Of a stretch of DNA of 62,618 bases, positions 39,886-58,257 are shown piece by piece. This DNA is from a virus. Below the pieces are notes generated by a model. The model had not been told where the DNA came from. It made no database searches and worked only from the letters and a program-made list of their open reading frames with translations. The stretch is taken from the IMG/VR virus record IMGVR_UViG_3300025151_000036, positions 1 through 62,618 of that record; one strand, written 5' to 3'. The position numbers and the translations under genes are program-made. Position 1 is the stretch's first letter. Each line of letters begins with the position of its first letter.

Positions 39886-41154
39886 TTAATCGATTAATGG
39901 TTTTATACTACGCCTATCATTGGCAAAAAACCAATTATCAATTTTTTCTGTTGTTTTTATTTGATATCCATGACCCGGAAGAAGATCTCCAATACCATTA
40001 AAGCCCCATTCAGGGAGATAGGCCGCTCCAAAATTGTCTTTGGCTATTATTATTTTTGCCGTTAAATCATATACTTGTTGAACTGTTCCTCTTTTATAAT
40101 ATGAATCAAATGAATCAAACTCTTCTAACGGAACTCCAAACGTGCCGGCTCGTTCTGCATGAGAAAATTGGGTTGTTATTTGGGTATCTGATTCAATAGA
40201 TGCAATAGATGTAATTACTGTAGTTCCATTTTGAATAAATCCAATTTCGTCTAAAGGCTCAAAATCGTTAACGAAAGATGTGTCAATTCCAATTATCTGA
40301 TTTGTACCTATAAGTGTGATACGACCGCGTAAAGAATTGCGAGCCTGTTCTGGTGTAGATTCGGTATCGTCCACTGTTGGGAAAGCATCAAATGTTACCT
40401 GTATGCCATTCTGGAAAGCTTCTACTAAATCACGCGGTCCATCTAATCTAGGATAAGAGATATTTTGCCAGCCTTGACAAAAATAATTTGGCGCGACTAC
40501 AGAATTACCAGCAAGAGACGTATTTTGATATTGTTCATAATCTTGCAAAGCTTCTATCATATCCACTTCAGATCGAAAATTTTCCAAGTTATTTTCGCGA
40601 GATAAATTTCCTGGTTGCCTAACATCGTTTATAACCATGGTGCTAACGTTTACATAAACATCATCAGTTACTATAAATTGTATTGGTCCTTCTAAAGGGC
40701 TGTCCTTTGGAAGTTTTATTTGATATGCTTTATTTGGTATAAAATTTCCTACACCGTTAAAGTCAAATTCTGGTAATATAGCTCCTCCTCCGGCATCCTT
40801 TAAAATAATGAAATGGGTTTCATCTAATACGTCTGGTAAAACTCCGGTTTTAAATTCTATCATAGCAGCTAATTGATCGGCTATATCTTGTTCATATGGT
40901 AACATATAACCTATAAAGTTCCAACCTTGTTGCAATGTGGCATCGCAATTAATAACTTTGAATTCTTGGCCAGATGCTCCTACGGCTGTTAAAACCACTG
41001 TACTTTCAAATGATTCTACGACAAAATCGCCGGCTCCATGAGCTGTATCGCGTGTTAAACTACCAACAAATTGTTCTGGTGCTAGACCATTAGGATCTAA
41101 TCCTTCCACATTATTCACTTCCACATTTAAATTATCTAATTCACGTAAGCTCAT
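39886..41154 (-). CDS. structural protein with two GW..Y / KD..GA.LPE.xFNGIG repeats (422 aa)
   Basis: Virion protein with two copies of one domain. Copy 1 (about 76-154) has QGWNFIGYMLPYEQDIADQL, then FIILKDAGGGAILPEFDFNGVGNFIPNKAYQIKL. Copy 2 has QGWQNISYPRLDGPRDLVEAF near 228-248, then KIIIAKDNFGAAYLPEWGFNGIGDLLPGHGYQIKT near 367-401, with about 120 extra residues between its halves. Such blocks are known from secreted or adhesion-related proteins of Bacteroidota and some phages. GGAGGT is the strongest ribosome binding site in the fibre region, and the start overlaps the upstream fibre stop as TAATG. It is probably an exposed adhesin-like part; the host hint is weak. Confidence 0.7.
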   Translation of the reverse strand: MSLRELDNLNVEVNNVEGLDPNGLAPEQFVGSLTRDTAHGAGDFVVESFESTVVLTAVGASGQEFKVINCDATLQQGWNFIGYMLPYEQDIADQLAAMIEFKTGVLPDVLDETHFIILKDAGGGAILPEFDFNGVGNFIPNKAYQIKLPKDSPLEGPIQFIVTDDVYVNVSTMVINDVRQPGNLSRENNLENFRSEVDMIEALQDYEQYQNTSLAGNSVVAPNYFCQGWQNISYPRLDGPRDLVEAFQNGIQVTFDAFPTVDDTESTPEQARNSLRGRITLIGTNQIIGIDTSFVNDFEPLDEIGFIQNGTTVITSIASIESDTQITTQFSHAERAGTFGVPLEEFDSFDSYYKRGTVQQVYDLTAKIIIAKDNFGAAYLPEWGFNGIGDLLPGHGYQIKTTEKIDNWFFANDRRSIKPLID

Positions 41155-44100
41155 TAGAACGTACCTCCGTCAATAGCAGTTGTGGTTGTTACAAACGATG
41201 CAGTTGCAGAATTTAATACAACAGTACCAGTAGTTGCAACACCAGTTAAATTAGTTCCATCTCCTACAAATGCATTTGCTGTAATTGTAGCACTTGAACT
41301 TATGCTTAATGATGTTGTAACATTACTTTCTAATACAATGCTAGTATACGGAAATGTTTGACCTTTAATTGTATCAACTCGCATAGTTCCAGTAGATCGG
41401 ATATCTCCAGCTACATCTAATGGGTATGCAGGATCATTTGATTGTAATATAGCAACTTTATTATTTTTTATACTAAATGGAGCAAAGCCTGAATTTTCAT
41501 TTAAATACGTTCCTTCTGCAATTTTAAATGTACTATCATGAGAATCAATACCCATTGCAAATGTAGTACTACTACGATCTGCTTGAAATTTTATAAATGC
41601 ATCAGCGTTATCTACTGGTGATCCAAAATATGTAATATTACTTCCGCCGGTGTTTCTTACTGTTAATGCAGGTCGAGTACTAGCTGCAAATAATATATTA
41701 TAATCATCTGTAGTAAATGTACGTGTATTTGATAAATCTCCTAGATTAACAAGACTGGCAGTAAATTCAGTAGTTGTTATTTTCGTTGGATTAAATATAG
41801 TAGTATGAAAGTTACTTGCACTTATTGTACCAGCAACATTAATATTACTCGATGATATTTGACCAAATATCACATCACTGCCGGTTACTGCAAAACTACC
41901 GGTAGCGTTCAAAATTCTTTGCACTGATGTTGTACTAGCTTTTAGACCAACATCACTTTGTAGTTCTTCAAATGAAGCAGTAGTTATGAATGATGAGTGA
42001 TCTATTGATTCTATAGTGTTTATTCGCGATTCTAATGATGCAGATACTAAATTAAATGCTCCAGAAACTGCAGATTTTAATGCATATGTATTGTGATTAT
42101 GAACTTCTAAAGTTATTAATCTATTTTGTAATGATGATGATATTGGTGTAAATGCACCGCTAATCTCTGCTGCGATTTGTGCTGATCCAGATAACAAAGT
42201 GTTTCCTAATTCAGATTCTGCGCTAGCAATTCTAGATTGTAATGAATTTGATACTTCATTAAATGCGCCGCTAATATCAGTTGAAATTTGAGCTGAACTT
42301 GATAAAGCTCCAGAAAATATACCAGTAAATGAATTAGCATTAACGCTTTGAGATACATTTAAATATCCATATGCTTTTGTTTCGCCACTTTCGCTTACTT
42401 GAAATAATAATTGAGCATTAGAGAAAAATTCGCTATTACTCATTACTGTAAATTTAGAACGAGCATTATTTTGATTCACAGCATCTAATATAATTGCAAA
42501 ACTACCGGATCCTTTTTGAGTCAAACTTCCGTGTACTGAATCTGATCCTAATAATGGTCCATATGATTGATTTTCTGCTCTCAATATAGTCGCATATTTA
42601 CCAGAATCACTCATTACAGCAATAAATCCTACATCGCTTTGATCAGATAATTGCACATTTGGAGTGGTTGAACCAGAAGGTGTTAGATCAATTCTACCGG
42701 CTTTAATTGTCTGAAATTCACTACCAGATTTAAACTGTATTTTTTTATCAGAATCTACTGACATGTTAATTACTTCTTTCTGCCCATCGTAAAATCTAAT
42801 AGTACCATCTGACACATGTATGTCATGCCAAGCTGCTGTACTACTACCTAAATCAAATGATGATGTTAAAATATTGGGTGCAGTATTTGGAATTATCGAT
42901 CCAGAAATACGTAATGGACCAGATAATTGCATTCCATGGCTTGCGGTAATACTTCCTGCAAAAATACTTTGCGATGTATATAAAGATCCGGATACATGTG
43001 TTTGCGGTGACTGTAATACAATTTTTCCTAATGTAGGGTGTAATGTGCGTATATCTACTTTTGCATCGGAAATTGCATAAATACGATATGCATCTAAATA
43101 CATGTCACTTACGCCTCCTACGTCTACATAATTTCCAAATATACGTGCTGAAAACTCATCTGTTCCATCTGAACCGTCTTGTCGTTTATTTGTCAAGAAA
43201 ATGTTGTTGTCAGACCCGAGTATAATATCACTTCCAGAAACATTTAATGTTTCTCCTAATATTAAATGTGATATACTGGCAGTATCTGGAAAAAATGCAA
43301 AACCATTAGCTTGTAACTCATTGAATGATGCATTTCCGTTGGCAGCAATACTATATGCAGGTCCATCAATTTGATTAACATTTAAAGTATCAGTTTTAAT
43401 GTTAGAACTTGCTGATACAATACTAGCAGTTATCGATGTTGCTCCTTTAATATGTGTTTCGCCAATACCTGAAGTGAAAGTTAAATTACCAGCTAAATTT
43501 ATAGAATTTGCAATGTCTCCTCCGGTGAAAAAACTAACCTCTGGTGGAACAAATTCTACGTAACCAACCTTAGCAGCTGATTGAGATACCAATAAGTCAA
43601 ATTCTGTCAATGGTTCGCCAGTTACATGAGAAGTGATTCCTGTAAGTGTATTATTAAATTTAACGTTTAATTGTTTTCTATTGGTAGGACCAAAATCTAA
43701 ATTTTCCCACATATCAAAATGATGCAATGCCATTGTACGAGTGAATGAACTATCTCCATTTTCTACTCGCAATCCGCCACTCACATACAATCTAAAAAAT
43801 TGGTATGCAGTATCTGCCGGCATATCAACTGACGCTGTGGCACAATAAACCCGTACTTCAGCAGTTGATTCGCCACCAGAATTATTTAGCCAGTAATATT
43901 GACTTCCATCTGTATTATTGTCATTAAATTTTATATGTGGTATACCCGGAAGTTTATCAATCGTACCGTTCAATGTGTTAGTACGTATACCAGATGCCGA
44001 TGCAATTTTTGTGTAAACTTGTCCATCTACACTTCCTTCCAATATATAACCTGCAGGATATTTTGTTGATTCTGGAAAATCGTTACCAGTAAGTCCTATG

Positions 44101-45422
44101 TTAAGATTATTGGTATCGCTATAAAATAATCCTACTCGTGCTAGTCGCTTTTGAGCTCCTAGGTCAAAACTTTGTGTAATCCATAATTGATTTAATCCGG
44201 ATTCTAAAGGAGGTGTTTCATATAATGCAAATGATGAAAGATCTGGTACATTTAAATCTGGTAATGAAGCGGTAGCAGAAAATTTAAATATGTTACCGGT
44301 GTTATATATACCGACACTTTCTTGCATGTATGGCCATTCAGTATATGTTATATCATTATAAGATGATGAACCTAATCGTACAACTAAATCACGTTCACCA
44401 AAAGATTTAGAAACCATAACAATACCATCTTTTGATACATATTCTATTATATCTTTAGAATCTGTTGCCGTAAATGTATTTTCTTTGTACCAACTATATT
44501 TATTAACATCATATGCACTTTCAAATTGATCGGCTACAGATACTAACGTTGTCGATACTCCGCCGGTACCGGAACTACCAGCCGTTCCAGCATTTAATGC
44601 ATAGCTAGCGGTCGCGACTGTCATATTCGATCCGGTCGGTCCAATGTAACGGTATGCTTGTATCCATAATGGATGAGTCTTACTTGATATATTAACAGGA
44701 TCATCTTGACTAGCAGCATCTATATCTAATCCTAAATATAATGCACCTTGACCATAATCAAATACATAGCCACCATATGAATTATTTTCATTATTGAAAG
44801 TATTATTTAATAAACTAGTCGCTGAAATTGTTGGGTGATCTGGATCTGTAAGACTAGTTAATTTAATTTGACATTGATATGCACTACCATACCTAGCTGG
44901 ATTGATCCAAGATTTTAATCTTTGTGAATCTGTATTAAATACAGTTCCTTGAACTATCTCTCGATCATATTCCTGTTGAACTAATACCCACGGAGCTTCT
45001 TCTGGGTCAGATTCTTGTATTGCCACATTACCAGATTGTTTTGGATCATATGCAAAATACATTTGGTTATTAGTATTAACTAGTTTTGCTAATGGCATTA
45101 TCACTAATTCTACATTAGGATTAGCACCGCTTGTATCATAAATTGATTCTGAAAAATATCCATCCCAAAGCGCATCATAACCTGTCCCAGAGCCAGTAAC
45201 CCATGTACGTATTTTATAAGGTAATACATTGGATGCATTTTTATTTCCAGTTTTTCTAGCAATATCTCCAGTAATTAACGCATCAGAATAAATTTGAGGC
45301 CCAGTTTCGAACTGTTCACCTGATACATCGGATGAAGCATTTGTCTGTAATACATTAAATACATATTTAAATGCCGATTTCCTTTTTTCAATTTCTAAAA
45401 ATTTACCTTCGCCTACAGCCAT
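41154..45422 (-). CDS. large tail fibre with discoidin-like domain (1422 aa)
   Basis: Long fibre. The first 300 residues form a globular domain (FLEIEKRKSAFKYVFNVLQTN, then ILVQQEYDREIVQGT-type and DYGQGALYLGLDIDAASQ blocks) that may attach it to the baseplate. A discoidin-like beta-sandwich lies at about 345-580 (LWITQSFDLGAQKRLARVGLFYSD, YILEGSVDGQVYTKIAS, YQFFRLYVSGG). The shaft has ASG-type turns, two full AQIxxEISGAF units shared with other fibres, and a tip region near 1250-1420 ending in SATASFVTTTTAIDGGTF. AAAAGGT gives the ribosome binding site. There is no S74 domain. Confidence 0.8.
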   Translation of the reverse strand: MAVGEGKFLEIEKRKSAFKYVFNVLQTNASSDVSGEQFETGPQIYSDALITGDIARKTGNKNASNVLPYKIRTWVTGSGTGYDALWDGYFSESIYDTSGANPNVELVIMPLAKLVNTNNQMYFAYDPKQSGNVAIQESDPEEAPWVLVQQEYDREIVQGTVFNTDSQRLKSWINPARYGSAYQCQIKLTSLTDPDHPTISATSLLNNTFNNENNSYGGYVFDYGQGALYLGLDIDAASQDDPVNISSKTHPLWIQAYRYIGPTGSNMTVATASYALNAGTAGSSGTGGVSTTLVSVADQFESAYDVNKYSWYKENTFTATDSKDIIEYVSKDGIVMVSKSFGERDLVVRLGSSSYNDITYTEWPYMQESVGIYNTGNIFKFSATASLPDLNVPDLSSFALYETPPLESGLNQLWITQSFDLGAQKRLARVGLFYSDTNNLNIGLTGNDFPESTKYPAGYILEGSVDGQVYTKIASASGIRTNTLNGTIDKLPGIPHIKFNDNNTDGSQYYWLNNSGGESTAEVRVYCATASVDMPADTAYQFFRLYVSGGLRVENGDSSFTRTMALHHFDMWENLDFGPTNRKQLNVKFNNTLTGITSHVTGEPLTEFDLLVSQSAAKVGYVEFVPPEVSFFTGGDIANSINLAGNLTFTSGIGETHIKGATSITASIVSASSNIKTDTLNVNQIDGPAYSIAANGNASFNELQANGFAFFPDTASISHLILGETLNVSGSDIILGSDNNIFLTNKRQDGSDGTDEFSARIFGNYVDVGGVSDMYLDAYRIYAISDAKVDIRTLHPTLGKIVLQSPQTHVSGSLYTSQSIFAGSITASHGMQLSGPLRISGSIIPNTAPNILTSSFDLGSSTAAWHDIHVSDGTIRFYDGQKEVINMSVDSDKKIQFKSGSEFQTIKAGRIDLTPSGSTTPNVQLSDQSDVGFIAVMSDSGKYATILRAENQSYGPLLGSDSVHGSLTQKGSGSFAIILDAVNQNNARSKFTVMSNSEFFSNAQLLFQVSESGETKAYGYLNVSQSVNANSFTGIFSGALSSSAQISTDISGAFNEVSNSLQSRIASAESELGNTLLSGSAQIAAEISGAFTPISSSLQNRLITLEVHNHNTYALKSAVSGAFNLVSASLESRINTIESIDHSSFITTASFEELQSDVGLKASTTSVQRILNATGSFAVTGSDVIFGQISSSNINVAGTISASNFHTTIFNPTKITTTEFTASLVNLGDLSNTRTFTTDDYNILFAASTRPALTVRNTGGSNITYFGSPVDNADAFIKFQADRSSTTFAMGIDSHDSTFKIAEGTYLNENSGFAPFSIKNNKVAILQSNDPAYPLDVAGDIRSTGTMRVDTIKGQTFPYTSIVLESNVTTSLSISSSATITANAFVGDGTNLTGVATTGTVVLNSATASFVTTTTAIDGGTF

Positions 45423-45453: not shown

Positions 45454-48400
45454 CTAAATACTTGTATCTTCTATTTTAAATGATGTAATATTTAAATTAG
45501 TTGCACTACTTTTTATTCGTATACGACTTAATACTGTTCCTCTAGTAAGTGATGTATTCCATGTACCAAACGACATTCGTATAATATGAGTATTAACTCC
45601 AGAATTAGATGTTACTTCATATTCTGAAACTCCAAATGCAAGAAGTGATGACCAATTTGGTTCGGATGGCGAACCTCTCGATCCTTCATCACCACTACCG
45701 CCGGTTGCAGTTGCCCAATCAGTACCTGGCGTTTCAGTATCAGATACTCCGGCAATGCCTCCTGGAATTTTTACATCTATACGTATTGGCAACCCATCGT
45801 AATGTGCTTGAGTTCCTTCGCCATCTATATCATCTGCATATAAATCAGCACGATCAAAGTTTCCAACTATAGTTATTTGTAATGCTGAATTATTTCCTTT
45901 CTTACCAATGTAAAAACCTCTATAATAATATCTATCACCAGTTGCATTTGAATAATCAATTAAAGTTGGTATACTAGTTACATAATCAGTATTTGGATAT
46001 ATTAACGATCCATACCAAGCAACTTGCAAGTCAGTTGTATCACTTATATTAGCATTTGAATTGTAATCCGCGAAAGCAGAACCGGTCCACCATGCAAAAT
46101 TATTTTTAGTTTGATTACCAGAATATCCTAACCCACCTGGATCGTTACTTGTACTTAAAGTATCAATAGTATTTTTATCCCATCGATAATCTTCAGACCA
46201 AAAATATTCATGTTCATCTGTAGATGCTTGGAATCCGGAACGGTTATCCGAATCGATAAATCGACCTAAATTTATTTCGGTACCAGTAGCATCTTTATCA
46301 AATGAATTTGCTGCACTGTAGTTACGCGAAAAATGTTTTATTGATACGGCACGAATATCTCCAGTTGGTGATACAGTGTTACCGGATGAAAGATCTTTTA
46401 TAGTTGTATCAAAACTTGCCGAATCATTAACAGATGGTAACAAATCACCATCAGTACCAAAATTAAGTCCAGAATCAGTTGTTAAATTATGATCCGTAGC
46501 TAAATTACTGCCGGCAAATAATAAAACGGAATCTGGTGTAGTTTCCATTATGGTATTGGCTTTATCTGGATATGTTGAACCAACAATTCCAGTAAATGCA
46601 TCTTTCAAAGTAATGTTAACATCTTGACCTTTTTCAAAGAAACTTACTCCGGATAAACTAAATGTTGGTTCTGTACCAGTTGTTGAATAACTTGCTGTTG
46701 CCGTTGCACGCGTTATTGGTAAAGTTGTATTATCATCGTAATACCATTCAAATGGTTGCCAATGCTGATTAGGCTTATCATCAGAGAATGAATGAGTGAA
46801 ATCAAGTCTGTTATAGCCATCGTACAATTTATCATCTATTTCAATACGAGCTGACCAACCTTGATATCCATGGCGATAAAACGTTCCAGCGTTATGTATA
46901 CTTTGCGATACTCCATTAAATGGTCGTACCTGCGTTATAATTAATCGACCTTTACCTGAATGCAAGTGATCGCCATTTGGTGCTGCAAATGATGCTGTTC
47001 CTTGATCTGGCCAGATATTATATATAGGTTGCGGACTTTCTTTCCATGATGGAATAAATGATGATGATAAATCATAATTTACTACAACACGTCCATTAAT
47101 TTTAACTATTAAAGATCCACTATCACCAAAATCAAATAACCTGTTATTATCACCATAATTTCCGGTAGATGCCGGAGTGAATGGATTAAACGACATTGAA
47201 TAATTTGTAGGCCCAGTTTCTGTATCTTTTGCCATTACAATATTATCAACAACTGTTCCTGCAGGTTCATTACTTTTATAATTGTTATTTTCAAATCCTT
47301 CTGGTAATGTGGCTCTGTATAATCGTCTAGTATTACCGTCGACGGATGGCACACTTATTCCAGTAGCGCTATATACAATTCCAGTTGTATTATGACTGCC
47401 TGCACCTGCTGCGCCCCAATATTTACCTTCCATACTTTGCGGTTTAGCAGGAATTACTGCAAATGTTAACGGAGAATTGCCAGATGAACCACTACCAGGT
47501 AATATATCAGAACCAGATACATTAATAGTAAAGTATTCTACTTTGGTATAATCATCCATGTAACTATTATATATTGTTAAAGAACCGGTATCCTGGCCAG
47601 AGGCGTTCGCATTTACAGGACTGAAGTCCAGATCTGGATCTGTCTCTTTATATAATATATTTAAATGATCAGGAAATGTTAATACACTTTCTGATGTTAT
47701 GGTCGGTGCTGATGCTGATATACCTGATATTATACCTACTACTAAATTTGATGCTTTATTATATGTAACATACTTATCAATATCTACAGATGATGACCAA
47801 TACACATTAGTTAGAGTCGGCGTTACAAATACAGATGCGGTAGGCGAACCAGTGACTGCTAATATGGCATGTGATAATTCATCCGATGATTTATTGTTTT
47901 CAAATTCATGTTGTATATTGTTAATATTTAACGTTTTTTCACCAGGCGTTGTTTGTATAGGTATAAACGATGATGTATAAGCAACGCTCGAAGAACCATG
48001 TGTATTATACATTTGTTGTGATAAAATTGATGCGATATCGGCAGAACCAGTATGTAATCGTACTGTATGTGATCCACCATATCCAGCAATTGTGAATATA
48101 CTTGCGGTATGATGAGGTCCAAATGGTTCTGCGATATCTGCTAATAATCGTACACTTGTTAATTGTTGTTTTGCAGTTGTATTTGGATATCCGGTATTTG
48201 CTGTATGATCTGTTTCTGTTACAGTATTACCATGCAGTATTGTAGTGGCACGCGATACCGTTCCTACACGTGATCCAGAAAATGTTTCTGCTTCTATGCG
48301 AATATTTGTTATTTCGGTAGGCGGTGTATTAGAAATCTGTATGGTACAATCGTTGGGGGCACCAAATTCAATACCATCAGAATCCATATATATACCAGTA

Positions 48401-51400
48401 ACATCACTTCCAGTTCGGTTGGTAGCGATGGCGAATCCGTAAGTTCCTTCCGCAAATGTGAATCCATCTGTATATGATCCTACATATGTGGTTACATGTT
48501 CACCGGTTGTTGTGTTTAGAACACGCTCAGAACGACTTGCCGTTTCTAGACTTGCGGTATGAAATTTGTAAGCGCGTGATTTGTTTTCTGGACCAGTGTT
48601 ATTACTCATTGTCACTTCGGTCGTGAAATGACGGAATCCTAATGGCTCTGTTATTGTAACGGTTGGTTGTAAACGTATTGCAGCGCTTCCGGACCAGATA
48701 TCACCTATGGTATTGGCATCAGAAGCTGATAAGGTGCGATTGAATCCGTATAATATGTTTTCTTGTCTAAAGCTGGTATTAACACTCGAACTGTAAAATG
48801 TTTCTGTTTCAAAAGTAGTTGCTACTTGGATTGGTTTAGATGCTGATACCACCATGTATAAATTATCTGGCGATGCCTTTGTTACACCGCTATCATCTTT
48901 AGGATTATGAAGTACATTGTTAACTGTGTCAATTTCAATTGCCCAATAACCGTCAGATAAAACTCTTGACGGCGATAATGATTCACCATACCATGATGAT
49001 GTATATGATGATATCAAATGTTTAGTATTAGTATCATATGCAACATTAGAAGATGCAGTTTGAGTTGAACTAGTACTAAATATTATATATTCACCTAATC
49101 CGTCACCGGTGGCAACAGTTACACTTGGTTGTTTATTATATGCGATCATTGAACCAGTATGATGTGGTCCTAATGGTTCTTCAATTTTAGCAAGTATTCG
49201 GAATCGTGTTACTGATTTTTCTGCGAACACAGAATTTAATCCTTCAAATGATGCAGAGTTTGCAAATGATACAGTTTCACCGTATAATATACTACGAGTT
49301 ACAGCGCTATGATTTGCCTGAATTGAATTTTGTATACCTATACCAGAATGACCCACTGTTTCAGTTTCTATCTGCATTTTATGTATAATGGTATTCACAG
49401 TATCATAAACTGTTATATTAACGTCGTTCACATCGCCAATTGTAAACGAATTTTCATTTTCTGGTTCATGTGATATTGTACCGGATGTATATGTCCATAC
49501 AGTGCTGGTAGCTGGCTCGCCTTCCAATGAAGCATATAAACTTTTTCCAAGCCATGATGATGTGTAATGTGATACTAACCTATTTGATGAGTCATATGCG
49601 ATATCAGACGATGCAGTGGTGTTAACAGATGCTGAACTAAAATGTATTGATTCGGATAATACTGTTCCTAGGCCGGCAGCTTCATCTCCTATAACATGAA
49701 TATTATCTACGGCAACATCGCTAGTATAACTAGTACCAGATAAAGAACTTATGTAAAGATAGAAATTACCAGTATTTCTGAGAGAACTAATATCACATTC
49801 TAATCTATAATACTGTCCAGTAAAACGAGTATTAGCATCATAATTAGAACTAGCTAGACCAGAATGTGTATTTCCAGTTATTGGACCATCTACCATATCA
49901 CTACCATTAAAATATTTATAGTCAAGTTCTGTAATACCAGAATCAGAGTCGGCAGACGTTCCATGATAAATTTTTAAAGGCTCAGCAGATGTAGTAGATC
50001 CATGTACCACAAAGTAAAGCACTAATTTTTCATTGGTAGTGTTTTGGTCTAAATTTAATTGCGGAGTTCTCAAAGTAAAAACTTTATTGGTATGATTACT
50101 AGCTTCGGTATGTGCATATCTTTGATTTGCAGTCGAAGATTCTGCATTAGAACTTGTAGCATTTGGTGAAAGACCTCGGGCTGGGCCGGTGTTACTACTG
50201 GCACCATTATAATCTACTTTCCATACAGCGCCGGCGTCACCTACATTTCTGAATTGACCTGGCCCCGTTGTACTAATATTACCGGCCGAAAAATCTTCAA
50301 AACTTTCTACATCTAAATAATGATAAGTACCTGACTCACCGGTGGTAACCCCTGGAGATGTCCATGTTTTATCAAATCGGGAAGCAGTATGTAACGGACC
50401 TACTGGTTCAGTTATAGTTGCTAATATTCTGAACCGAGTAACTGATTGTGATGCATATGTGTCTGCATTCGTGTGTCCTGCAAATGAAGCAGATCCGGTA
50501 CATGTATAGTATTGGTCTCCATATAATACTTTTCTAGTTGTATTTGTTGATGGTTCTCCAGAATATCCATGCGTTTCAGTTTCATACCGTACATTTGTGA
50601 TTTCTGTAGGTGCTGTATTACGAACTGTCATAGTTGTAGCACTTGAATTTGCATTTGTAGGATTTGTTTCTCCTACAGGAACATGTGCTACAAAATTATT
50701 TTGTATAGTCCATGTAGTTTCAGAGTTGCCAGATTCCAATGATTTGGTAACCCATGATGAAGTATATTCTGTAATAAATTCTCCTAATGTGTTAAAAGAT
50801 GAATTTTTTACGACCATATCTATGGATTGCGTACCAAAAATCATATTTTGAGATTTTTGAGTTCCACCAGTAAACAATAATTGAGATATAGATGCAGTAT
50901 GCACTAATGGACCAACCGGTTCTGTTATAGTTACTTTTGTACGGAATCTGGACACCGATTGAGATGCATATGATCCGGAATTAGGATGATTTGCATAACT
51001 TGAAGAATTGATATCAGTTGCCTGATTATTACCATATAGCACAGTACGTACTGTATTTTGTATTGGTTCTCCAGAATATCCAAATGTTTCTGTTTCAGTT
51101 TTATAATTTTCATATTTTGGTGCTGCCGTTGCATATACATTTAATGATGATGTTCTAGATGCAGATGCAAAAGATATTGCACTATTATCTATAGGACTAT
51201 GTATTATTTGTGATGGTCTGTATTGCCATCGTGCAATGTCATCCACATTTGATGATGATAATTGTACACCAAAATATGATGATGTATATGTAGATACTTT
51301 TCTTGTTAAATTATCAAAATATGATTGAGATGACACAATTGCTTCATTATACGTATCTAAACTGAATACAGTGTTATGATAAATTATCGAGTCAATGAAA

Positions 51401-54400
51401 TTTAGTCTGTAAAATTCTATATCGTTTATAAAAATATCAGATGTATTGTGAAATAAAATTTTAAAATAACGATAAGATCGATTCGGTGTAATTGTATTTC
51501 CAATAATATTTTGAATTTCTTCATAAAAGATATTGTCAAAACTAGCTTGTATTTCTATAGGCGATACATTTGCAGGATCAGACAAATCAAATTCAACTCG
51601 GGCTATCATTTGTGGTTCAGCAAATACAATTTGCATTTCATGTGAAGCAACATTTGTTTCATAACTTTGCCCGTTAATAAATGCATTTTCTGGCGATCCG
51701 GCGTTGATTGAATTTACATTAATAATAGATACTTCTGGAGTTGACATATTTTCAATTTTTACAGGTTCGCCTAACGATTTTGGTGTAAATTCTTGTCGTA
51801 TAATTGATCCTGTATGATATGGCCCCATCGGTTCAATTATAGTTGCAAATATTCTGAACCGAGTAACTGATTGAGATGCATATAATGATGCTTTTGCACT
51901 TCCAGACCAATATAAACTTTCTGTAGTTGCTAGTGTATGATGAGGTACACCATACAATACTTTTCGCGAACCAGAGGTAGTACTTATATTAGAATATCCA
52001 TGTGTTTCTGTTTCTAATGCCACATTAGTAAATTGAGTTGGTTGAGTATCATAAACAATGATTGTACTGGATTGGCCTGATGCTGTTGTGAATCCAGTTT
52101 CTCCCGTAGGTGTATGTAAAATACTTCCTGATGTATATGTCCAAGCTTGGCCATTTACATTATCATCTTTTACATATATAGAAGAAGATAATCCAACTCC
52201 TTTCCATTCAGATGTATAATCTACTACTAATCTATTTGACGAGTCATATGCAATTGCAGATGAAGCAGTATCTGTTGATGCGGTACTAAAATGTATCACA
52301 TCAGTCATAATTGGCACAGAACCGGTTTGCCAAACTCTTTCAAATCGAGAAGCAGTATGCAAAGTACCTACTGGCTCTGTTATTTTTGCACGAACTCTAA
52401 ATCTAGTAACTGAATGAGATGCGTATAATGATGCTGATGTATGTGATGCCCAATCTTCTCCAGATTCATTAGACCCAGTACCAGTATTAGTTACTTGTTT
52501 ATCACCGTATAATATTCTACGAATTGTACTTGTCGATGGTATATCCGAATATCCAAATGTTTCTGTTTCATATTTTATATCTGATATTTGAGTTGGTGCT
52601 GTATCATGTACAATTATAGATCCATTCGTTTCATCTTCTTGTATTAACCCATTTTCACCGGAAGTAAGTTCGATAAACTTACCAGTTAAATTATGAGTTT
52701 TTTGATCGCCGGCGATAGTATCAAATTCACGTCCAATAAATGAAGATGTATAAAATGTGACCAACTTATTATCTATGTAAAGAGAAGATGAAGTACCACC
52801 ATTTTCAATCGATCCGGTCTGTATCTCAAAGTTTGTAGTCGTAGTTCCATAAGTAAACTCAGCACGTAATTTATTTACGGCCGGGCCAATTGGTTCTGTT
52901 ACTCGTGCTCTAAATCTAACTCTTGATACTGATTGCGATGCATATGATCCGGAATTAGGATGATTTGCATAACTTGAAGAATTAATATCAGTTGTTTTAT
53001 CATTTCCATATAATACTGTACGTGTACTATTTGATGTTTCTATATTAGAATATCCATGAGTTTCAGTTTCCCAAAATATTTTTTCAATTTTTACTTGTGC
53101 AGTATCATTAACTATTAATTGAGTTGATTCGCCCGATGCCGTTATAAATCCTGGTTCACCGGTAGGTGTATGTAAAATACTTCCTGATGTATATGTCCAT
53201 GTTTTTGGAGCGCCTTCATTTGATGATAATTGCTGGCCAATCCAAGATGATGTGTAATTTACTATTAATCTTTTAGTAGAATCATAATGCAAACTTTGTG
53301 TTAATAAATCATTAGATGCAGTTTGAAAATGTATTACCGAATTAATTATTTCTGAATTATCTGACCATACTTGATCAAATCTTGACGCTGTATGTAATGG
53401 TCCTGCCGGTTCAGTTATTCTTGCGCGAACTCTAAATCTAGTAACTGAATGAGATACGTAAAGCGATGCCGAATCATGGCCATCAAATGATGACGAGTCA
53501 ATATTAGTTACATGCGGATCACCATATAATACAGTACGCATCGCATTTGTACTACCAGTATAAGAATGACCAAACGTTTCAGTTTCATAAATAATATTAT
53601 CAATTGTTGTGTTATCAGTATTTCGAACTGTCACAAATGTCGCAGTAAATGAACTCGAATCTGCAGAATTTTCACCTGGCGGATTATGTGTTACAGAACC
53701 AGTTGATATAGACCAAGGCATTTCTCCTTTTGCATCTGATGTAGTAGTTAATGATTCTCCAATCCATGACGATGTATATTCTGTTACAAATTCTCCTAAT
53801 GTAGTCCAATATGAATGTGATGATTCAAATCCAATTGATTCTGTACTAAATATAATCGTATCTGTTTTACCACCTTGTACTACATTTGACATTGCAAAAG
53901 TTTTTTCAACAATAGATGCTATATGTTGTAATGGTCCTACCGGTTCAGTTATTCTAGCAAGCATACGGAATCGTGATACCGATTGAGATGCATATGTATC
54001 TGCATTTACATGTCCTGCAAATGAAGATGAATCAATAATTGTTTGTGCGTTAACACCATATAATACATCACGTATTGCGTTTTGACTTGGTTCTTTAGAA
54101 TAACCATGAGTTTCTGTTTCAGTTTTAAAGTTTGAAAATACAGTTGGTTGAGTATCATATACAGTAATAGTAGTTGAATTTCCTGATGCGGTTGTGAATC
54201 CATTTTCATTTGTTGGTTCATGTAATATAGAACCAGATGTATATTTCCATTGCTCGCCAGTAACAAAATTATTTGATGTCAATTCTTTACCAATCCAAGA
54301 TGAAGTATAATGTGCAACTAAACGGTTTGAAGAATCATATGCAATTGCAGATGATGCCGTATCAGTAGATGCAGAATTAAAATGTATTACATCCGTTATT

Positions 54401-57400
54401 TGTGATTCATTTAGTGCAGTCCATACTTTTTCAAATCGAGAAGCAGTATGTAGAGGACCTACCGGTTCAGTAATAGTTGCTAATACACGGAATTGAGTCA
54501 CAGATTGTGATGCATATAATGATGCACTTGCATGAGTTGCATATGACGATGAATCTTTATTTGTATGATGTGCAACTCCATACAATACTTTTCTAGTTGT
54601 ATTTGTAGATGGCTCTCCAGAATATCCATGCGTTTCAGTTTCATACCGTACATTTGTTATCTCAGTTGGTACAGTATCACGTATTATCATTGTTGCAGGT
54701 GTAGGCATTCCTTTATCAATTCCATTTTCTTCGCCAGCAAATGTAGATGTAGGAATTGTAGAATCGTCAATAAATACAGCTGTCACTGTTTTGTCTACTC
54801 CTGGAGAGTCTAATGAAATTGATTCTCCATGCCAAGATTCTGTATAATGAGCCACTAATCTTTTTTGTGAATCGTACGCATAATAAATGCTTTCAAAATC
54901 GTCTGAACTAGTATGTGCAGTTAAAGTTCGGTTAGTATTAAATACTCCAATAAATTGCACTGAACCTACTCTAGGACCTACTGGTTCTGTTATACGAGTT
55001 CGCATTCGTATTCGTGACACTGACTGAGATGCATATGCAGACTTTCTTGGATGTCCTTCTAAAGAAGATGAATTTGCTAATGTTGTACGATTACTTCCAT
55101 ATAACACAGTACGCACAGTATTAGTAACTCCAGAGTCAATTGCATTTGACGCGCTATGGCCATATTCTTCAAATTCTTGTATACGATTACTTATTTGTAC
55201 TTGAGCTGTATCATTTACTTTTAATTGAGTTGATTGTCCAGATGAAGTTGTAAATCCACTTAAGTCAATTGGATTATGTGTTATACTTCCTGACGTGTAT
55301 GTCCATGTTTTTGAAGCGTTAATACTTGATGATAATTGACGACCAATCCAAGATGATGTGTAATGTGCCAATAAACGATTAGCCGAATCATATGCAATTG
55401 CAGATGATGCTGTATCAGTTGAACCGGTACTAAAATGTATTACTGAATTAAATGGAGTTTCTCCAGGCGCAGTCCAAACTTTTTCAAATTGCGATGCTAT
55501 ATGATACGGTCCAAATGGCTCTTTAATACTTGCCAATACTCGGAATCGTGATACTGAATGAGATGCATATACTGATGCCGATGTATGGCTAGCAAAAGAT
55601 TCAGAATTTACTAATGTATGCCTAGGTACTCCATACAATACTGTTCTTAATGCATCATAACTTGGTTCTTCAGAATATCCTGATGTTTCAGTCTGATATC
55701 GAATATTTGTTATTTCTGTTGCCGGTGTAGCATTTACAAGAACAGATGCATATATACCGGTATCTGTATTACGGCCAGTATTAGTATCAGAATTAAATGT
55801 TGAACTAAAATTATATGTACCAGGTATTAAATTAAAATCGATCCAAGAAGATGTATAATTACCAACTAATCTATCCTGATCATCGTATACAATTGCCGAT
55901 GATGCCGTTTCTGTGGATCCGGTATAAAATGCAAACGTACGTGTATGTATTCCGCCTTGCAAATCAGAACAATGTAATGTTGAATTCATTTCTGCATGAT
56001 GAGGTCCAAAAGGTTCTGTTATAGTTGCCAATAAACGTACTCTCACAACTGATTCGCTTATATATTCTGCAGTCTTTTCATATCCTTCTAAACTAGATGT
56101 TTCTGCAATTCGTAATGATGATGTATATCCGTACAATACGCTTGCAGTTCTTTCAAATGCTCCAACGCCGGTCAAAAATGATCCAGATTCAACTTCTACA
56201 CGCACATTTGATATTTCAATATTTGGTACTGGCGTTACTGTTAATGTAGTTGTAGGTCCTTGAGGTGCATCAGAAATATGATCATAAGTTCCATGTCGTA
56301 AATTATTTCTGGTATCACCTGAAAAGTTTTTTATTTCTGATGTACCAACTGTATATTGTATTGGCGAAAATCCTAAACTTTCTGTCACATTAGTAAAGTC
56401 AAAATTTGCTCCAAATGCTGATGCAGTTGCACGAAATAAACCGGTAGCTGTACTTCCGCTAAATCTAAAAGTTTTATAATGTAATGCATTATTAGTATCA
56501 CCGGTATCATTTAATTTTATTTCTGTAAAATGTGTTCCATCTGGTTCATAATCCGTAGGCTCTGTTATATCAGCCATTACAGATACACGTACTAATGATG
56601 CGGTATAACGAGGATGTAATCCATCCTTACTAGTACGAGTAGCAGTATCATCATACAGTATTGGGGTAGAAAATGTATCTGTTCCAATACCGGTAAATGA
56701 TCCAGACTCTATATGCGCTCTTATGTTACTAATACTTGCAGTATTTGGTGGCACAATTGACATGCTATATTCTAAAGATGAAGAATGATCTACGTACCAG
56801 TTATCAAACAATGTTATTGTGAAACGTTCTTCGCGTGGTTGTATTGATTCTGCATGAATAGTATTACCATTTGTGACATCATAATTAGAAATACTCGCAG
56901 TAAATGCTAACACAGAATTTGGTATTGGTGATGATAATGGTCCGGCTCCATACACTGCAGTAGGATTAGTTGGATCGACAGATCCTGTAGCAATTAAATT
57001 ATCCGAATCTGCAATATTCAATTGATGATGTTTCATTGTCAAATCATATGCAGCTGTAGTTGTTGATGGTGTTCCTGGATCAGATGTGGATCGACTCGCA
57101 GAAAATACTCTAATATAATCACCTTCTCCTTGATTTGGTTCAAAAGATTCGGTAAAATGTAATATATGTGTTAATGAGTTTTGATCATGTCCAATTTGCA
57201 CAACACCAAAAGATTGTGACGGTGCAACAATTGTTGGTTCTACATTAACATATCCTTTAATAAATGCAGATGTATACACTGCATGAGTCTCACCAGCACT
57301 ACCAGTATTTGTAGCGTAAACAATATATCTATGTACACCAGAAGCTAAATCATTTGTAAATGGTTTTACGCCAGCTGTATCAGGCGGAACTGTCCTATCC

Positions 57401-57774
57401 GATCCTGTATAAAAATTTTGAGGTCCAGATTGAAGAGTATCAAATCCATTTTCAACTAACTTGATAAAGACAAAATGATTAGGATCAAATCCAGCTGATG
57501 ATGTTGTTTCAATTCGAAAATAATCAGCTGGTGCTACTAAACTGCCGGCATCTAATTCTGTTACATGATCGACAGATGATGGCGATGATGCAGATATTCC
57601 AGATCCAGATCCAGCAAAGAATACAGCGCCGGCTAATCCTGTAAGTCCAGAACCATCTCCTATAAATTTTGTCGCAGTTACATTACCGGTAACTTGAATA
57701 CCGCTCTGGAATGTAGCAGGAGAGCTTCCTGATTGTATCCATACACTACTTGTAAATTTATGAGTTCCAGCCAT
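45454..57774 (-). CDS. giant modular adhesin/fibre with about 15 Ig-like repeats (4106 aa)
   Basis: The largest gene, 12.3 kb. Residues 1-50 (MAGTHKFTSSVWIQSG, PATFQSGIQVTGNVTATKFIGDG) match the start of the 160-codon gene. From about 345 to 3250 run some 15 modules of 120-250 residues, each with ITNVRYETETHGYS, SASLYASQSVTRFRVLATITEPVGPLHTAS, SAIAYDSSNRLVAHYTSSWIG and SGSILHEPTGE, probably beta-sandwiches in a long rod. Two modules carry extra domains in the same loop: a discoidin-like one (about 2003-2126) and a MAM/jelly-roll-like one (about 2478-2698). Residues 3350-4106 form a distinct C-terminal region (WYGSLIYPNTDYVTSIPTLIDYSN, YYYRGFYIGKKG). There is no S74 domain, signal peptide or membrane anchor. 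AAAGG-type ribosome binding is poor; GGAT lies upstream. Likely a host-binding filament. Confidence 0.85.
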   Translation of the reverse strand: MAGTHKFTSSVWIQSGSSPATFQSGIQVTGNVTATKFIGDGSGLTGLAGAVFFAGSGSGISASSPSSVDHVTELDAGSLVAPADYFRIETTSSAGFDPNHFVFIKLVENGFDTLQSGPQNFYTGSDRTVPPDTAGVKPFTNDLASGVHRYIVYATNTGSAGETHAVYTSAFIKGYVNVEPTIVAPSQSFGVVQIGHDQNSLTHILHFTESFEPNQGEGDYIRVFSASRSTSDPGTPSTTTAAYDLTMKHHQLNIADSDNLIATGSVDPTNPTAVYGAGPLSSPIPNSVLAFTASISNYDVTNGNTIHAESIQPREERFTITLFDNWYVDHSSSLEYSMSIVPPNTASISNIRAHIESGSFTGIGTDTFSTPILYDDTATRTSKDGLHPRYTASLVRVSVMADITEPTDYEPDGTHFTEIKLNDTGDTNNALHYKTFRFSGSTATGLFRATASAFGANFDFTNVTESLGFSPIQYTVGTSEIKNFSGDTRNNLRHGTYDHISDAPQGPTTTLTVTPVPNIEISNVRVEVESGSFLTGVGAFERTASVLYGYTSSLRIAETSSLEGYEKTAEYISESVVRVRLLATITEPFGPHHAEMNSTLHCSDLQGGIHTRTFAFYTGSTETASSAIVYDDQDRLVGNYTSSWIDFNLIPGTYNFSSTFNSDTNTGRNTDTGIYASVLVNATPATEITNIRYQTETSGYSEEPSYDALRTVLYGVPRHTLVNSESFASHTSASVYASHSVSRFRVLASIKEPFGPYHIASQFEKVWTAPGETPFNSVIHFSTGSTDTASSAIAYDSANRLLAHYTSSWIGRQLSSSINASKTWTYTSGSITHNPIDLSGFTTSSGQSTQLKVNDTAQVQISNRIQEFEEYGHSASNAIDSGVTNTVRTVLYGSNRTTLANSSSLEGHPRKSAYASQSVSRIRMRTRITEPVGPRVGSVQFIGVFNTNRTLTAHTSSDDFESIYYAYDSQKRLVAHYTESWHGESISLDSPGVDKTVTAVFIDDSTIPTSTFAGEENGIDKGMPTPATMIIRDTVPTEITNVRYETETHGYSGEPSTNTTRKVLYGVAHHTNKDSSSYATHASASLYASQSVTQFRVLATITEPVGPLHTASRFEKVWTALNESQITDVIHFNSASTDTASSAIAYDSSNRLVAHYTSSWIGKELTSNNFVTGEQWKYTSGSILHEPTNENGFTTASGNSTTITVYDTQPTVFSNFKTETETHGYSKEPSQNAIRDVLYGVNAQTIIDSSSFAGHVNADTYASQSVSRFRMLARITEPVGPLQHIASIVEKTFAMSNVVQGGKTDTIIFSTESIGFESSHSYWTTLGEFVTEYTSSWIGESLTTTSDAKGEMPWSISTGSVTHNPPGENSADSSSFTATFVTVRNTDNTTIDNIIYETETFGHSYTGSTNAMRTVLYGDPHVTNIDSSSFDGHDSASLYVSHSVTRFRVRARITEPAGPLHTASRFDQVWSDNSEIINSVIHFQTASNDLLTQSLHYDSTKRLIVNYTSSWIGQQLSSNEGAPKTWTYTSGSILHTPTGEPGFITASGESTQLIVNDTAQVKIEKIFWETETHGYSNIETSNSTRTVLYGNDKTTDINSSSYANHPNSGSYASQSVSRVRFRARVTEPIGPAVNKLRAEFTYGTTTTNFEIQTGSIENGGTSSSLYIDNKLVTFYTSSFIGREFDTIAGDQKTHNLTGKFIELTSGENGLIQEDETNGSIIVHDTAPTQISDIKYETETFGYSDIPSTSTIRRILYGDKQVTNTGTGSNESGEDWASHTSASLYASHSVTRFRVRAKITEPVGTLHTASRFERVWQTGSVPIMTDVIHFSTASTDTASSAIAYDSSNRLVVDYTSEWKGVGLSSSIYVKDDNVNGQAWTYTSGSILHTPTGETGFTTASGQSSTIIVYDTQPTQFTNVALETETHGYSNISTTSGSRKVLYGVPHHTLATTESLYWSGSAKASLYASQSVTRFRIFATIIEPMGPYHTGSIIRQEFTPKSLGEPVKIENMSTPEVSIINVNSINAGSPENAFINGQSYETNVASHEMQIVFAEPQMIARVEFDLSDPANVSPIEIQASFDNIFYEEIQNIIGNTITPNRSYRYFKILFHNTSDIFINDIEFYRLNFIDSIIYHNTVFSLDTYNEAIVSSQSYFDNLTRKVSTYTSSYFGVQLSSSNVDDIARWQYRPSQIIHSPIDNSAISFASASRTSSLNVYATAAPKYENYKTETETFGYSGEPIQNTVRTVLYGNNQATDINSSSYANHPNSGSYASQSVSRFRTKVTITEPVGPLVHTASISQLLFTGGTQKSQNMIFGTQSIDMVVKNSSFNTLGEFITEYTSSWVTKSLESGNSETTWTIQNNFVAHVPVGETNPTNANSSATTMTVRNTAPTEITNVRYETETHGYSGEPSTNTTRKVLYGDQYYTCTGSASFAGHTNADTYASQSVTRFRILATITEPVGPLHTASRFDKTWTSPGVTTGESGTYHYLDVESFEDFSAGNISTTGPGQFRNVGDAGAVWKVDYNGASSNTGPARGLSPNATSSNAESSTANQRYAHTEASNHTNKVFTLRTPQLNLDQNTTNEKLVLYFVVHGSTTSAEPLKIYHGTSADSDSGITELDYKYFNGSDMVDGPITGNTHSGLASSNYDANTRFTGQYYRLECDISSLRNTGNFYLYISSLSGTSYTSDVAVDNIHVIGDEAAGLGTVLSESIHFSSASVNTTASSDIAYDSSNRLVSHYTSSWLGKSLYASLEGEPATSTVWTYTSGTISHEPENENSFTIGDVNDVNITVYDTVNTIIHKMQIETETVGHSGIGIQNSIQANHSAVTRSILYGETVSFANSASFEGLNSVFAEKSVTRFRILAKIEEPLGPHHTGSMIAYNKQPSVTVATGDGLGEYIIFSTSSTQTASSNVAYDTNTKHLISSYTSSWYGESLSPSRVLSDGYWAIEIDTVNNVLHNPKDDSGVTKASPDNLYMVVSASKPIQVATTFETETFYSSSVNTSFRQENILYGFNRTLSASDANTIGDIWSGSAAIRLQPTVTITEPLGFRHFTTEVTMSNNTGPENKSRAYKFHTASLETASRSERVLNTTTGEHVTTYVGSYTDGFTFAEGTYGFAIATNRTGSDVTGIYMDSDGIEFGAPNDCTIQISNTPPTEITNIRIEAETFSGSRVGTVSRATTILHGNTVTETDHTANTGYPNTTAKQQLTSVRLLADIAEPFGPHHTASIFTIAGYGGSHTVRLHTGSADIASILSQQMYNTHGSSSVAYTSSFIPIQTTPGEKTLNINNIQHEFENNKSSDELSHAILAVTGSPTASVFVTPTLTNVYWSSSVDIDKYVTYNKASNLVVGIISGISASAPTITSESVLTFPDHLNILYKETDPDLDFSPVNANASGQDTGSLTIYNSYMDDYTKVEYFTINVSGSDILPGSGSSGNSPLTFAVIPAKPQSMEGKYWGAAGAGSHNTTGIVYSATGISVPSVDGNTRRLYRATLPEGFENNNYKSNEPAGTVVDNIVMAKDTETGPTNYSMSFNPFTPASTGNYGDNNRLFDFGDSGSLIVKINGRVVVNYDLSSSFIPSWKESPQPIYNIWPDQGTASFAAPNGDHLHSGKGRLIITQVRPFNGVSQSIHNAGTFYRHGYQGWSARIEIDDKLYDGYNRLDFTHSFSDDKPNQHWQPFEWYYDDNTTLPITRATATASYSTTGTEPTFSLSGVSFFEKGQDVNITLKDAFTGIVGSTYPDKANTIMETTPDSVLLFAGSNLATDHNLTTDSGLNFGTDGDLLPSVNDSASFDTTIKDLSSGNTVSPTGDIRAVSIKHFSRNYSAANSFDKDATGTEINLGRFIDSDNRSGFQASTDEHEYFWSEDYRWDKNTIDTLSTSNDPGGLGYSGNQTKNNFAWWTGSAFADYNSNANISDTTDLQVAWYGSLIYPNTDYVTSIPTLIDYSNATGDRYYYRGFYIGKKGNNSALQITIVGNFDRADLYADDIDGEGTQAHYDGLPIRIDVKIPGGIAGVSDTETPGTDWATATGGSGDEGSRGSPSEPNWSSLLAFGVSEYEVTSNSGVNTHIIRMSFGTWNTSLTRGTVLSRIRIKSSATNLNITSFKIEDTSI
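47840..56760 (-). repeat. array of about 15 diverged Ig-like coding modules
   Basis: Within the 4106-codon gene the block ITEPxGPxHTAS recurs about 15 times, each time preceded by ETETxGYS, VLYG and YASQSVTRFR and followed by SAIAYDSSNRL and YTSSW. Modules are about 360-450 bases, longer where domains are inserted. Both outer ends have drifted most, and the central modules are most alike. Confidence 0.85.
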
Positions 57775-58257
57775 TTATATTAAATCCGGATTAATTATAA
57801 CTGTTGCACCTGCAGTAACTGTCTCTTTTGATGCAGTACTCATTGCTAATAATAAATATTCATGCACCCCAGTACCTAGGTTTTGTAACAATGTTTTAGG
57901 AGATTCTAAACCGTTTTTAGTTCCTGCATAATCTGATTGTTCTACCCATCCATTTGATTCCAATTTTAAAAATGTAAAATGGTTAAATGTGCCATTAGAA
58001 GCAGATGTGGATAATAAAATTGTTTGGTTGCCTCCGGTACCGGTAATCCAATTTCCATACGTTGGTGGATTACTCAATGATTCAGATCCAAAGAATAAAT
58101 TTGTAGTTGATACTCCAAAATTTAAATTAGTAAGTAATGCACCATTACCTATAAATTTACCAGTAACAACTCCAGATGATGATACTCCGGATTGAAATGT
58201 TGCCGGTGTAGATCCAGAATGAGAAAAAGATCCAGAAAATTTATGTATACCAGCCAT
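57775..58257 (-). CDS. short paralogue of the giant adhesin N-terminus (160 aa)
   Basis: A 160-residue structural protein that copies the start of the 4106-residue protein: MAGIHKFSGSFSHSGSTPATFQSGVSSSGVVTGKFIGNGALLTNL against MAGTHKFTSS..., and FNHFTFLKLESNGW with GVHEYLLLAMST matching PNHFVFIKLVENGF with GVHRYIVYATNT. It ends where the repeat modules begin in the giant. The start overlaps the 641-codon stop as TAATG with AAGGAAA upstream, and the giant gene starts one base after its stop. It could compete for or cap the same docking site, or form a heteromeric base for the giant fibre. Confidence 0.75.
   Translation of the reverse strand: MAGIHKFSGSFSHSGSTPATFQSGVSSSGVVTGKFIGNGALLTNLNFGVSTTNLFFGSESLSNPPTYGNWITGTGGNQTILLSTSASNGTFNHFTFLKLESNGWVEQSDYAGTKNGLESPKTLLQNLGTGVHEYLLLAMSTASKETVTAGATVIINPDLI

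Follow-up and report, generated by a model that had tools for sequence, protein, structure and literature searches.

The 62,618-base stretch of viral DNA analysed here, which we call the window (W), is the whole of IMG/VR record IMGVR_UViG_3300025151_000036. Among its PHROGs matches are a tail sheath, a head-tail adaptor, a PhoH-like protein and relatives of a clamp loader and of a DNA polymerase, and we therefore infer that the record derives from a T4-like myovirus. In a region with several tail-fibre matches lies an open reading frame (ORF) of 4106 amino acids (aa), open throughout its length, which encodes a giant fibre or adhesin. Two modules of its long repeat array are each split, at the same hairpin loop, by an extra domain, and that loop is also the site of insertions in two related fibres. 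The features needed for the argument are the following, with residues numbered along the fibre.

45454..57774, minus strand: giant fibre/adhesin gene, 4106 aa, comprising an N-terminal region, a module array and a C-terminal region
Residues 1-344, minus strand: fibre N-terminal region, aligned with relatives
Residues 345-3309, minus strand: fibre module array of 15 homologous modules
Residues 3310-4106, minus strand: fibre C-terminal region, conserved in relatives
54151..54678, minus strand: module m5 (residues 1033-1208), without an insert, the module closest to m12
51136..52050, minus strand: module m10 (residues 1909-2213, 305 aa), interrupted by insert 1, from profile and alignment
51373..51774, minus strand: insert 1 (residues about 2001-2134), suggestively discoidin-like, likely homologue of the insert in module m11 of the related fibre L010
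50617..51135, minus strand: module m11 (residues 2214-2386), no insert, a predicted immunoglobulin (Ig)-like sandwich, from profile and model
49420..50616, minus strand: module m12 (residues 2387-2785, 399 aa), interrupted by insert 2; its sister is the insert-free m5
49660..50352, minus strand: insert 2 (residues about 2475-2705), a MAM-like jelly roll

A profile made from ten insert-free modules of the window fibre (profile A1) matches all 15 modules, m1 and m14 in part. Thirteen of them measure 160-194 aa, and the profile is broken only in the two long ones, m10 and m12, at profile positions 90-99. In m10, positions 1-99 correspond to residues 1909-2006 and positions 94-168 to residues 2133-2208; in m12, positions 2-90 correspond to residues 2387-2475 and positions 92-174 to residues 2704-2791. 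The extra residues thus exposed, about 132 in m10 and about 227 in m12, fall at one hairpin loop and, by alignment, follow a strand ending RQEF in m10 and RFDKTW in m12. An initial annotation of this DNA had proposed two whole extra domains in the same intramodule loop, and the split profile bears this out, with boundaries that agree with those first given and with the insert-free m11 between them. The motif pair by which it had recognized the loop, RFxKxW followed by VIHF in most modules, did not hold: even a loose pattern is found in only 5 of 15 modules (m3, m5, m7, m9 and m12), and in modules without the pair the sameness of the loop rests on the alignment. Ordinary extension of the modules was rejected as an explanation, since the profile resumes beyond each insert and insert 2 has homologues elsewhere. 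At the DNA level, m12 is 80% identical to m5 over its first 252 bases and 70% identical over 200 bases past the insert. The G+C fraction of insert 1 (0.287) lies below that of the modules (0.337-0.370), and that of insert 2 (0.371) is module-like.

Structure prediction indicates that the module is an Ig-like beta-sandwich. An AlphaFold2 model of m10-m11 (model 1, folded from a 45-row alignment) has two sheet-rich regions and a mean predicted local distance difference test score (pLDDT) of 78.2, with module blocks mostly at 76-96 and the insert 1 block at about 37-65. In its m11 the turn 395-398, which joins strands 387-394 and 399-405, is the insertion site, or socket, and in m10 insert 1 comes after strand 82-90; the socket is thus a hairpin turn between the fourth and fifth predicted strands. 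Foldseek and VIA-align matched model 1 to integrin alpha chains, NCX1 calcium-binding domains, antibodies and streptococcal antigen I/II, and a BFVD search returned Ig-like and other viral proteins, two of them at an expect value (E) under 0.001; the module sequence compared with the PDB gave no match better than E about 1. By VIA-align, model ranges of about 312-478, which lie in m11 and span the socket, match single VH domains of antibodies (chain residues 1-113), and the range 307-478 matches residues 437-594 of integrin 6avu (Z 7.7, root-mean-square deviation (rmsd) 3.5, 125 aligned), where each range gives the first and last aligned residue only and a Z under 8 denotes a common fold class, not kinship. 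One Ig-like fold therefore seems to cover both halves of a module, and m10 and m12 may be described as split Ig-like domains, the discontinuity coming from the profile and the fold from the model.

Scans of viral contigs with module, N-terminal and C-terminal alignments brought in nine other records, the last N-terminal scan adding none. After near-duplicates were dropped (L009, 99.6% identical to L010; L011, the same as L012 over 863 aa; and L020, whose fibre length and profile scores equal those of L019), seven fibres were kept: that of the window, L010 (4139 aa), L014 (2913 aa), L013 (2226 aa), L019 (2020 aa), L033 (1913 aa) and a partial L012, the lengths being those of open frames. We counted insertions of at least 12 aa inside the profile-covered part of the 58 modules of these fibres; first modules are covered over only 36-57% of the profile in 6 of the 7. 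Such insertions occur in five modules, are each 130 aa or more, and all sit in the same loop: W m12 (227 aa), L014 m3 (153 aa), L010 m11 (136 aa), W m10 (132 aa) and L014 m8 (182 aa by profile, 187-188 aa by global alignment). The bearers span several module ranks, and in pairwise alignments the inserts start after module residue 86 (m12), 92 (L014 m3) and 85 (L014 m8). For L014 m8 the hidden Markov model alone placed the insert at profile position 154, and we used the global alignments with W m15 and L013 m6, which place it at the socket. The check that the initial annotation had proposed, an alignment of homologues in related phages, thus yielded three more inserts at the same loop, one in L010 and two in L014. 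The inserts of W m10 and L010 m11 are 24% identical, against 55% and 38% for their flanks. Searches of the annotated phage collection by tblastn with the m10-m12 region and with m5-m9 gave no match, nothing was found in viral contigs with the m10-m12 protein or with insert 2 alone, and the module alignment A4 found nothing in genome contigs.

Insert 2 had been described as MAM/jelly-roll-like, which sequence profiles and a model support. A profile of insert 2 and two homologues (profile A6) matches the MAM structure 8yt7 at E 1.9e-6 for the whole sequence and 0.003 for the best stretch, and a profile of the two homologues without insert 2 scores insert 2 at 71.5 bits, a value reached by 0 of 2000 shuffles. 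Both homologues lie in other genes of a 147-kb phage record, G002, and MAM-like domains are therefore common to different genes of related phages. One is a 271-aa ORF (L038, 1498-2313, minus strand), MAM-like and above the Pfam MAM cut-off at 48.5 bits; the other is a 652-aa ORF (L036, 379-2337, minus strand), MAM-like and below that cut-off at 14.5 bits. In the annotated phage collection, tblastn found no match to the L038 MAM domain, and five records matched the L036 fibre outside its MAM-like stretch. The module m12 was also modelled (model 2) from a seven-row alignment picked by a placement test. Foldseek ranked MAM structures first, second and fourth for this model (8yt7 at E 6e-5, 2c9a and 5l73), with low template-modelling scores, and put third a meprin beta, which presumably has a MAM domain; the best VIA-align match was a carbohydrate-binding domain, 8jiy (Z 8.5, rmsd 4.2, 142 aligned). 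Insert 2 is linked to MAM domains (PF00629) by a homologue above the Pfam cut-off and by a MAM structure as its model's best Foldseek match, and differs from them in that it scores below the cut-off itself (13.7 against 26.4 bits) and has a single cysteine. We regard it as a MAM-like jelly roll akin to MAM proteins, the kinship judged from sequence profiles and the fold predicted by a low-confidence model.

The companion claim that insert 1 is discoidin-like stands on much weaker ground. Its strand order and motifs resemble, in our estimation, those of the F5/8 type C family, and the four non-MAM inserts combined as one profile match 4uap, which we take to be a discoidin-type carbohydrate-binding module (CBM), at E 7e-4. 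Singly, the inserts of L010 and L014 m3 gave no discoidin among the PDB matches listed, and no insert exceeds the PF00754 cut-off in Pfam, the best being that of L014 m8 at 0.041. The nearest relative found for insert 1 is the insert of L010 m11 (phmmer E about 0.007 among 455 ORFs), which is likely a homologue; in a leave-one-out test none of 2000 shuffles reaches the score of the L010 insert. Insert 1 can accordingly be called discoidin-like only suggestively. Designed "Cake" proteins and antibody chains, found with the L010 insert among the 60 of 139 phmmer matches listed, were taken as chance. Elsewhere in the window, a near-threshold F5/8 type C (PF00754) match at 21330-21590 on the minus strand (25.5 bits, cut-off 28.2) lies within another giant fibre of the same phage, a 3701-aa ORF at 18444-29549, and a second discoidin-like stretch was recognized by eye from its strand order at 43623-44285 (minus strand) in a 1422-aa ORF, with no Pfam match at E 1.

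The history of the inserted modules was read from a maximum-likelihood tree of 51 of the 58 modules, with the seven first modules omitted and the inserts removed. W m12 and the insert-free W m5 are sisters (support 98/97), as are W m10 and the insert-bearing L010 m11 (98/96); L014 m3 stands beside four insert-free modules, including m3 of L010, L012 and the window (98/75), and L014 m8 beside the insert-free L013 m6 (93/78), within a clade that groups last modules with 100/100 support. A quick tree built earlier from 52 modules gave the inserted modules broadly the same company. Insert presence needs four changes on the tree, of which the starred branches force at least three; trees needing one change made up 0% of 200 bootstrap trees, and 49 of 500 label shuffles needed as few as four. 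A single clade of all five inserted modules is rejected by the approximately unbiased (AU) test (p 0.0105). By the AU test two places of insert gain are firm, the MAM-like content of m12 suggests a further event, and four is the best count of the tree. The pattern is one of gain or loss at the loop rather than exchange between close relatives. Module kinds also alternate along m3-m12 of the window fibre, which would fit duplication in units of two modules: the tree groups m3, m5, m7, m9, m10 and m12 together (with weak support), m4 with m8, and m6 with m11. Four of the five inserts fall in the m3/m5/m7/m9/m10/m12 group. Modules m6, m8 and m12 of L010 are close copies (end branches 0.03-0.08), indicating recent internal duplication.

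We consider it probable that the gene encodes a phage fibre of Ig-like modules in which a permissive loop socket carries side domains, likely accessory receptor- or glycan-binding heads. The protein would be a very long tail fibre or adhesin, its shaft built of Ig-like modules in series, with one hairpin turn of the module as the socket. Into this turn a whole beta-sandwich domain would have been inserted in some modules, MAM-like in m12 and perhaps discoidin-like in m10, so that the split module bears a side domain while the continuity of the shaft is kept. These domains would most probably make several weak contacts along the shaft, adding to whatever role the conserved C-terminal region has, and over evolution modules would have multiplied by duplication and the socket would have acquired side domains, lost them or had them replaced. 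That the inserts could bind host glycans is suggested by their fold class, their patchy presence and their faster change relative to the flanks, and the earlier statement that folds of these kinds often bind sugars finds support, by inference from fold, for insert 2 and less surely for insert 1. Lateral display and reloading by recombination, both put forward in the initial annotation, would fit the same picture. More tentatively, a family of giant phage fibres may use one loop of a repeated Ig-like module as a general, reloadable socket for unrelated beta-sandwich binding domains, some of them shared with other tail genes, in which case a fibre could carry several lateral heads and its host range could be altered by side-domain replacement at a constant tip.

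A number of observations weigh against this interpretation. Binding of a ligand by the inserts is putative. Model 2 is poor, with a mean pLDDT of 48 (its jelly-roll blocks are better, mostly 58-82), and in VIA-align MAM-bearing chains reach Z 6.7-7.2, level with Eph and reelin domains. Searched by itself, insert 1 has no Pfam match to PF00754 and no discoidin among the PDB matches listed; a profile built from the remaining three non-MAM inserts matches nothing in the PDB and scores insert 1 at 9.1 bits, as high as 5 of 2000 shuffles, which falls to 5.1 bits (49 of 2000) when a PF00754-like domain is added to the profile, and comparison of insert 1 with the other inserts by hhalign yields a probability of 3.2 (P 0.014). 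In the leave-one-out test, 28 of 2000 shuffles reach the score of the L014 m8 insert, 222 that of L014 m3 and 314 that of the PF00754-like domain, so that treating the non-MAM inserts as one "discoidin-like" family is a suggestion built on weak leave-one-out scores. An extension of about 60 aa in L010 m14 (residues 2747-2983, 237 aa against a median of 174) lies in the C-terminal part of the module, beyond profile position 141 and outside the socket; it fell outside our count as profile coverage stopped at that position, and with it five of six long extensions are located at the socket. The AU test does not reject one clade of four inserted modules without L014 m8 (p 0.22), nor a clade of W m10, L010 m11 and L014 m3 (p 0.68), the tree held to the latter having beaten the free tree. 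Finally, the relatives are all IMG/VR contigs, and the annotated phage collection gave no match.

The inserts could instead be structural, bracing neighbouring chains or modules or protecting the fibre, rather than binding receptors. MAM-like and discoidin-like describe folds, not functions, and MAM domains elsewhere also mediate protein-protein contacts. However, 53 of the 58 modules are insert-free, including all those examined in L013, L019, L033 and the partial L012, and the shaft therefore does not need inserts; in addition, the low identity between the inserts of W m10 and L010 m11, set against that of their flanks, is what would be expected of a fast-changing recognition part. We regard a purely structural role as unlikely and continue to favour side domains that bind.

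Another explanation, which we hold to be quite unlikely, is that a single ancient insertion in one module, multiplied by module duplication and lost many times, gave rise to most inserted modules, and that the socket is not generally permissive. It draws on the clades of four and three that the AU test leaves standing, and on the sister modules W m10 and L010 m11, whose inserts are weakly linked by phmmer; it has also gained weight because the L014 leave-one-out results weaken the discoidin-like set. Against it stand the rejection of a single clade of all five and the insert-free state of m5, the sister of m12. Cross-profile scores, each a weak test, point the same way: insert 1 scores only 0.8 bits with the MAM profile (equalled or exceeded by 99 of 2000 shuffles) and insert 2 only 2.2 bits with the discoidin-like profile (152 of 2000), so that even under a single origin the content of the MAM-like insert must at least have been replaced. 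The notion that each "module" is really two consecutive domains with the inserts as ordinary extra domains between them appears very improbable, for while a loop and a linker are indistinguishable from sequence alone, the VIA-align ranges that straddle the socket in m11 provide good, if not final, evidence of a single domain there, and placement between modules is thereby rejected, less firmly than ordinary extension.

In scans of the whole fibre, Pfam gave no family above cut-off and a single sub-threshold match, to a hantavirus glycoprotein, taken as chance, and PHROGs at E 0.01 gave phrog_28668 alone, of unknown function, at residues 11-50. Just upstream of the fibre, a 160-aa ORF (57775-58257, minus strand) is a paralogue of the fibre N-terminal region (34% identity, E 3e-15). 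Its homologues lie directly upstream of the fibre in all six relatives examined (L010, L012, L013, L014, L019 and L033), and its product is possibly an adaptor with the same docking head as the fibre. Close to the fibre genes, a 422-aa ORF (39886-41154, minus strand) has halves that look alike by eye (QGWNFIGY..., QGWQNISY...).

The tip of the fibre is where phage host recognition is usually thought to take place. If shaft modules have a natural socket for insertions, the fibre would gain side heads along its length, which would help explain how giant fibres diversify, and the socket marks a site in a phage protein where nature has inserted whole domains. An incomplete literature search found no description of split Ig-like modules in a phage fibre, titles and the opening parts of abstracts disclosed no paper on MAM domains of phage tails, and the accessible parts of two further reports (PMC12923769, PMC13320782) contain no split Ig-like fibre module. 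A discoidin-like domain does occur in phage tails, for example at the C-terminus of the LKA1 tailspike, according to the available portion of that account (PMC5701251).

The jelly-roll folds proposed for the inserts are, we assume, of the type with neighbouring ends. Neighbouring ends are typical of the ligand-binding domains that bud out of split domains in RTX adhesins, as the accessible text of one study has it (PMC12077191), and in FrhA, MpIBP and AhLap split Ig-like domains project ligand-binding domains, CBMs among them, off axis (PMC10865825, PMC12077191). As far as the available sections of these papers go, RTX adhesins share with the phage fibre a very long chain, tandem Ig-like modules, a discontinuous Ig-like domain carrying another domain, and different inserted domains within one protein. 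They differ in being bacterial, with RTX repeats and a type I secretion signal, whereas the fibre is the product of a virus gene that the Pfam scan does not place among them; in the RTX-like case of AhLap, the chain exits after the first strand, and in the fibre after the fourth predicted strand. Unlike in RTX adhesins, moreover, the split modules of the fibre are themselves units of the repeat array, and three fibres have insertions at this site. The second parallel is with phages of lactic-acid bacteria, in which CBMs in loops of Dit galectin domains are reported, in the accessible parts of the sources, to bind the host (PMC7291167, PMC6669499). Such an "evolved Dit" is likewise a virion protein with domains inserted into the loops of a structural domain; its carrier, as there described, is the galectin domain of the baseplate Dit, whereas the carrier here is an Ig-like module repeated along a giant fibre and the content is MAM-like, and no Dit family was matched by the fibre in PHROGs at E 0.01. 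If our interpretation is correct, a split Ig-like domain architecture would be common to phages and bacterial adhesins, and the finding would join the split Ig-like domains of RTX adhesins and the loop-inserted CBMs of phage Dit in one phage fibre.

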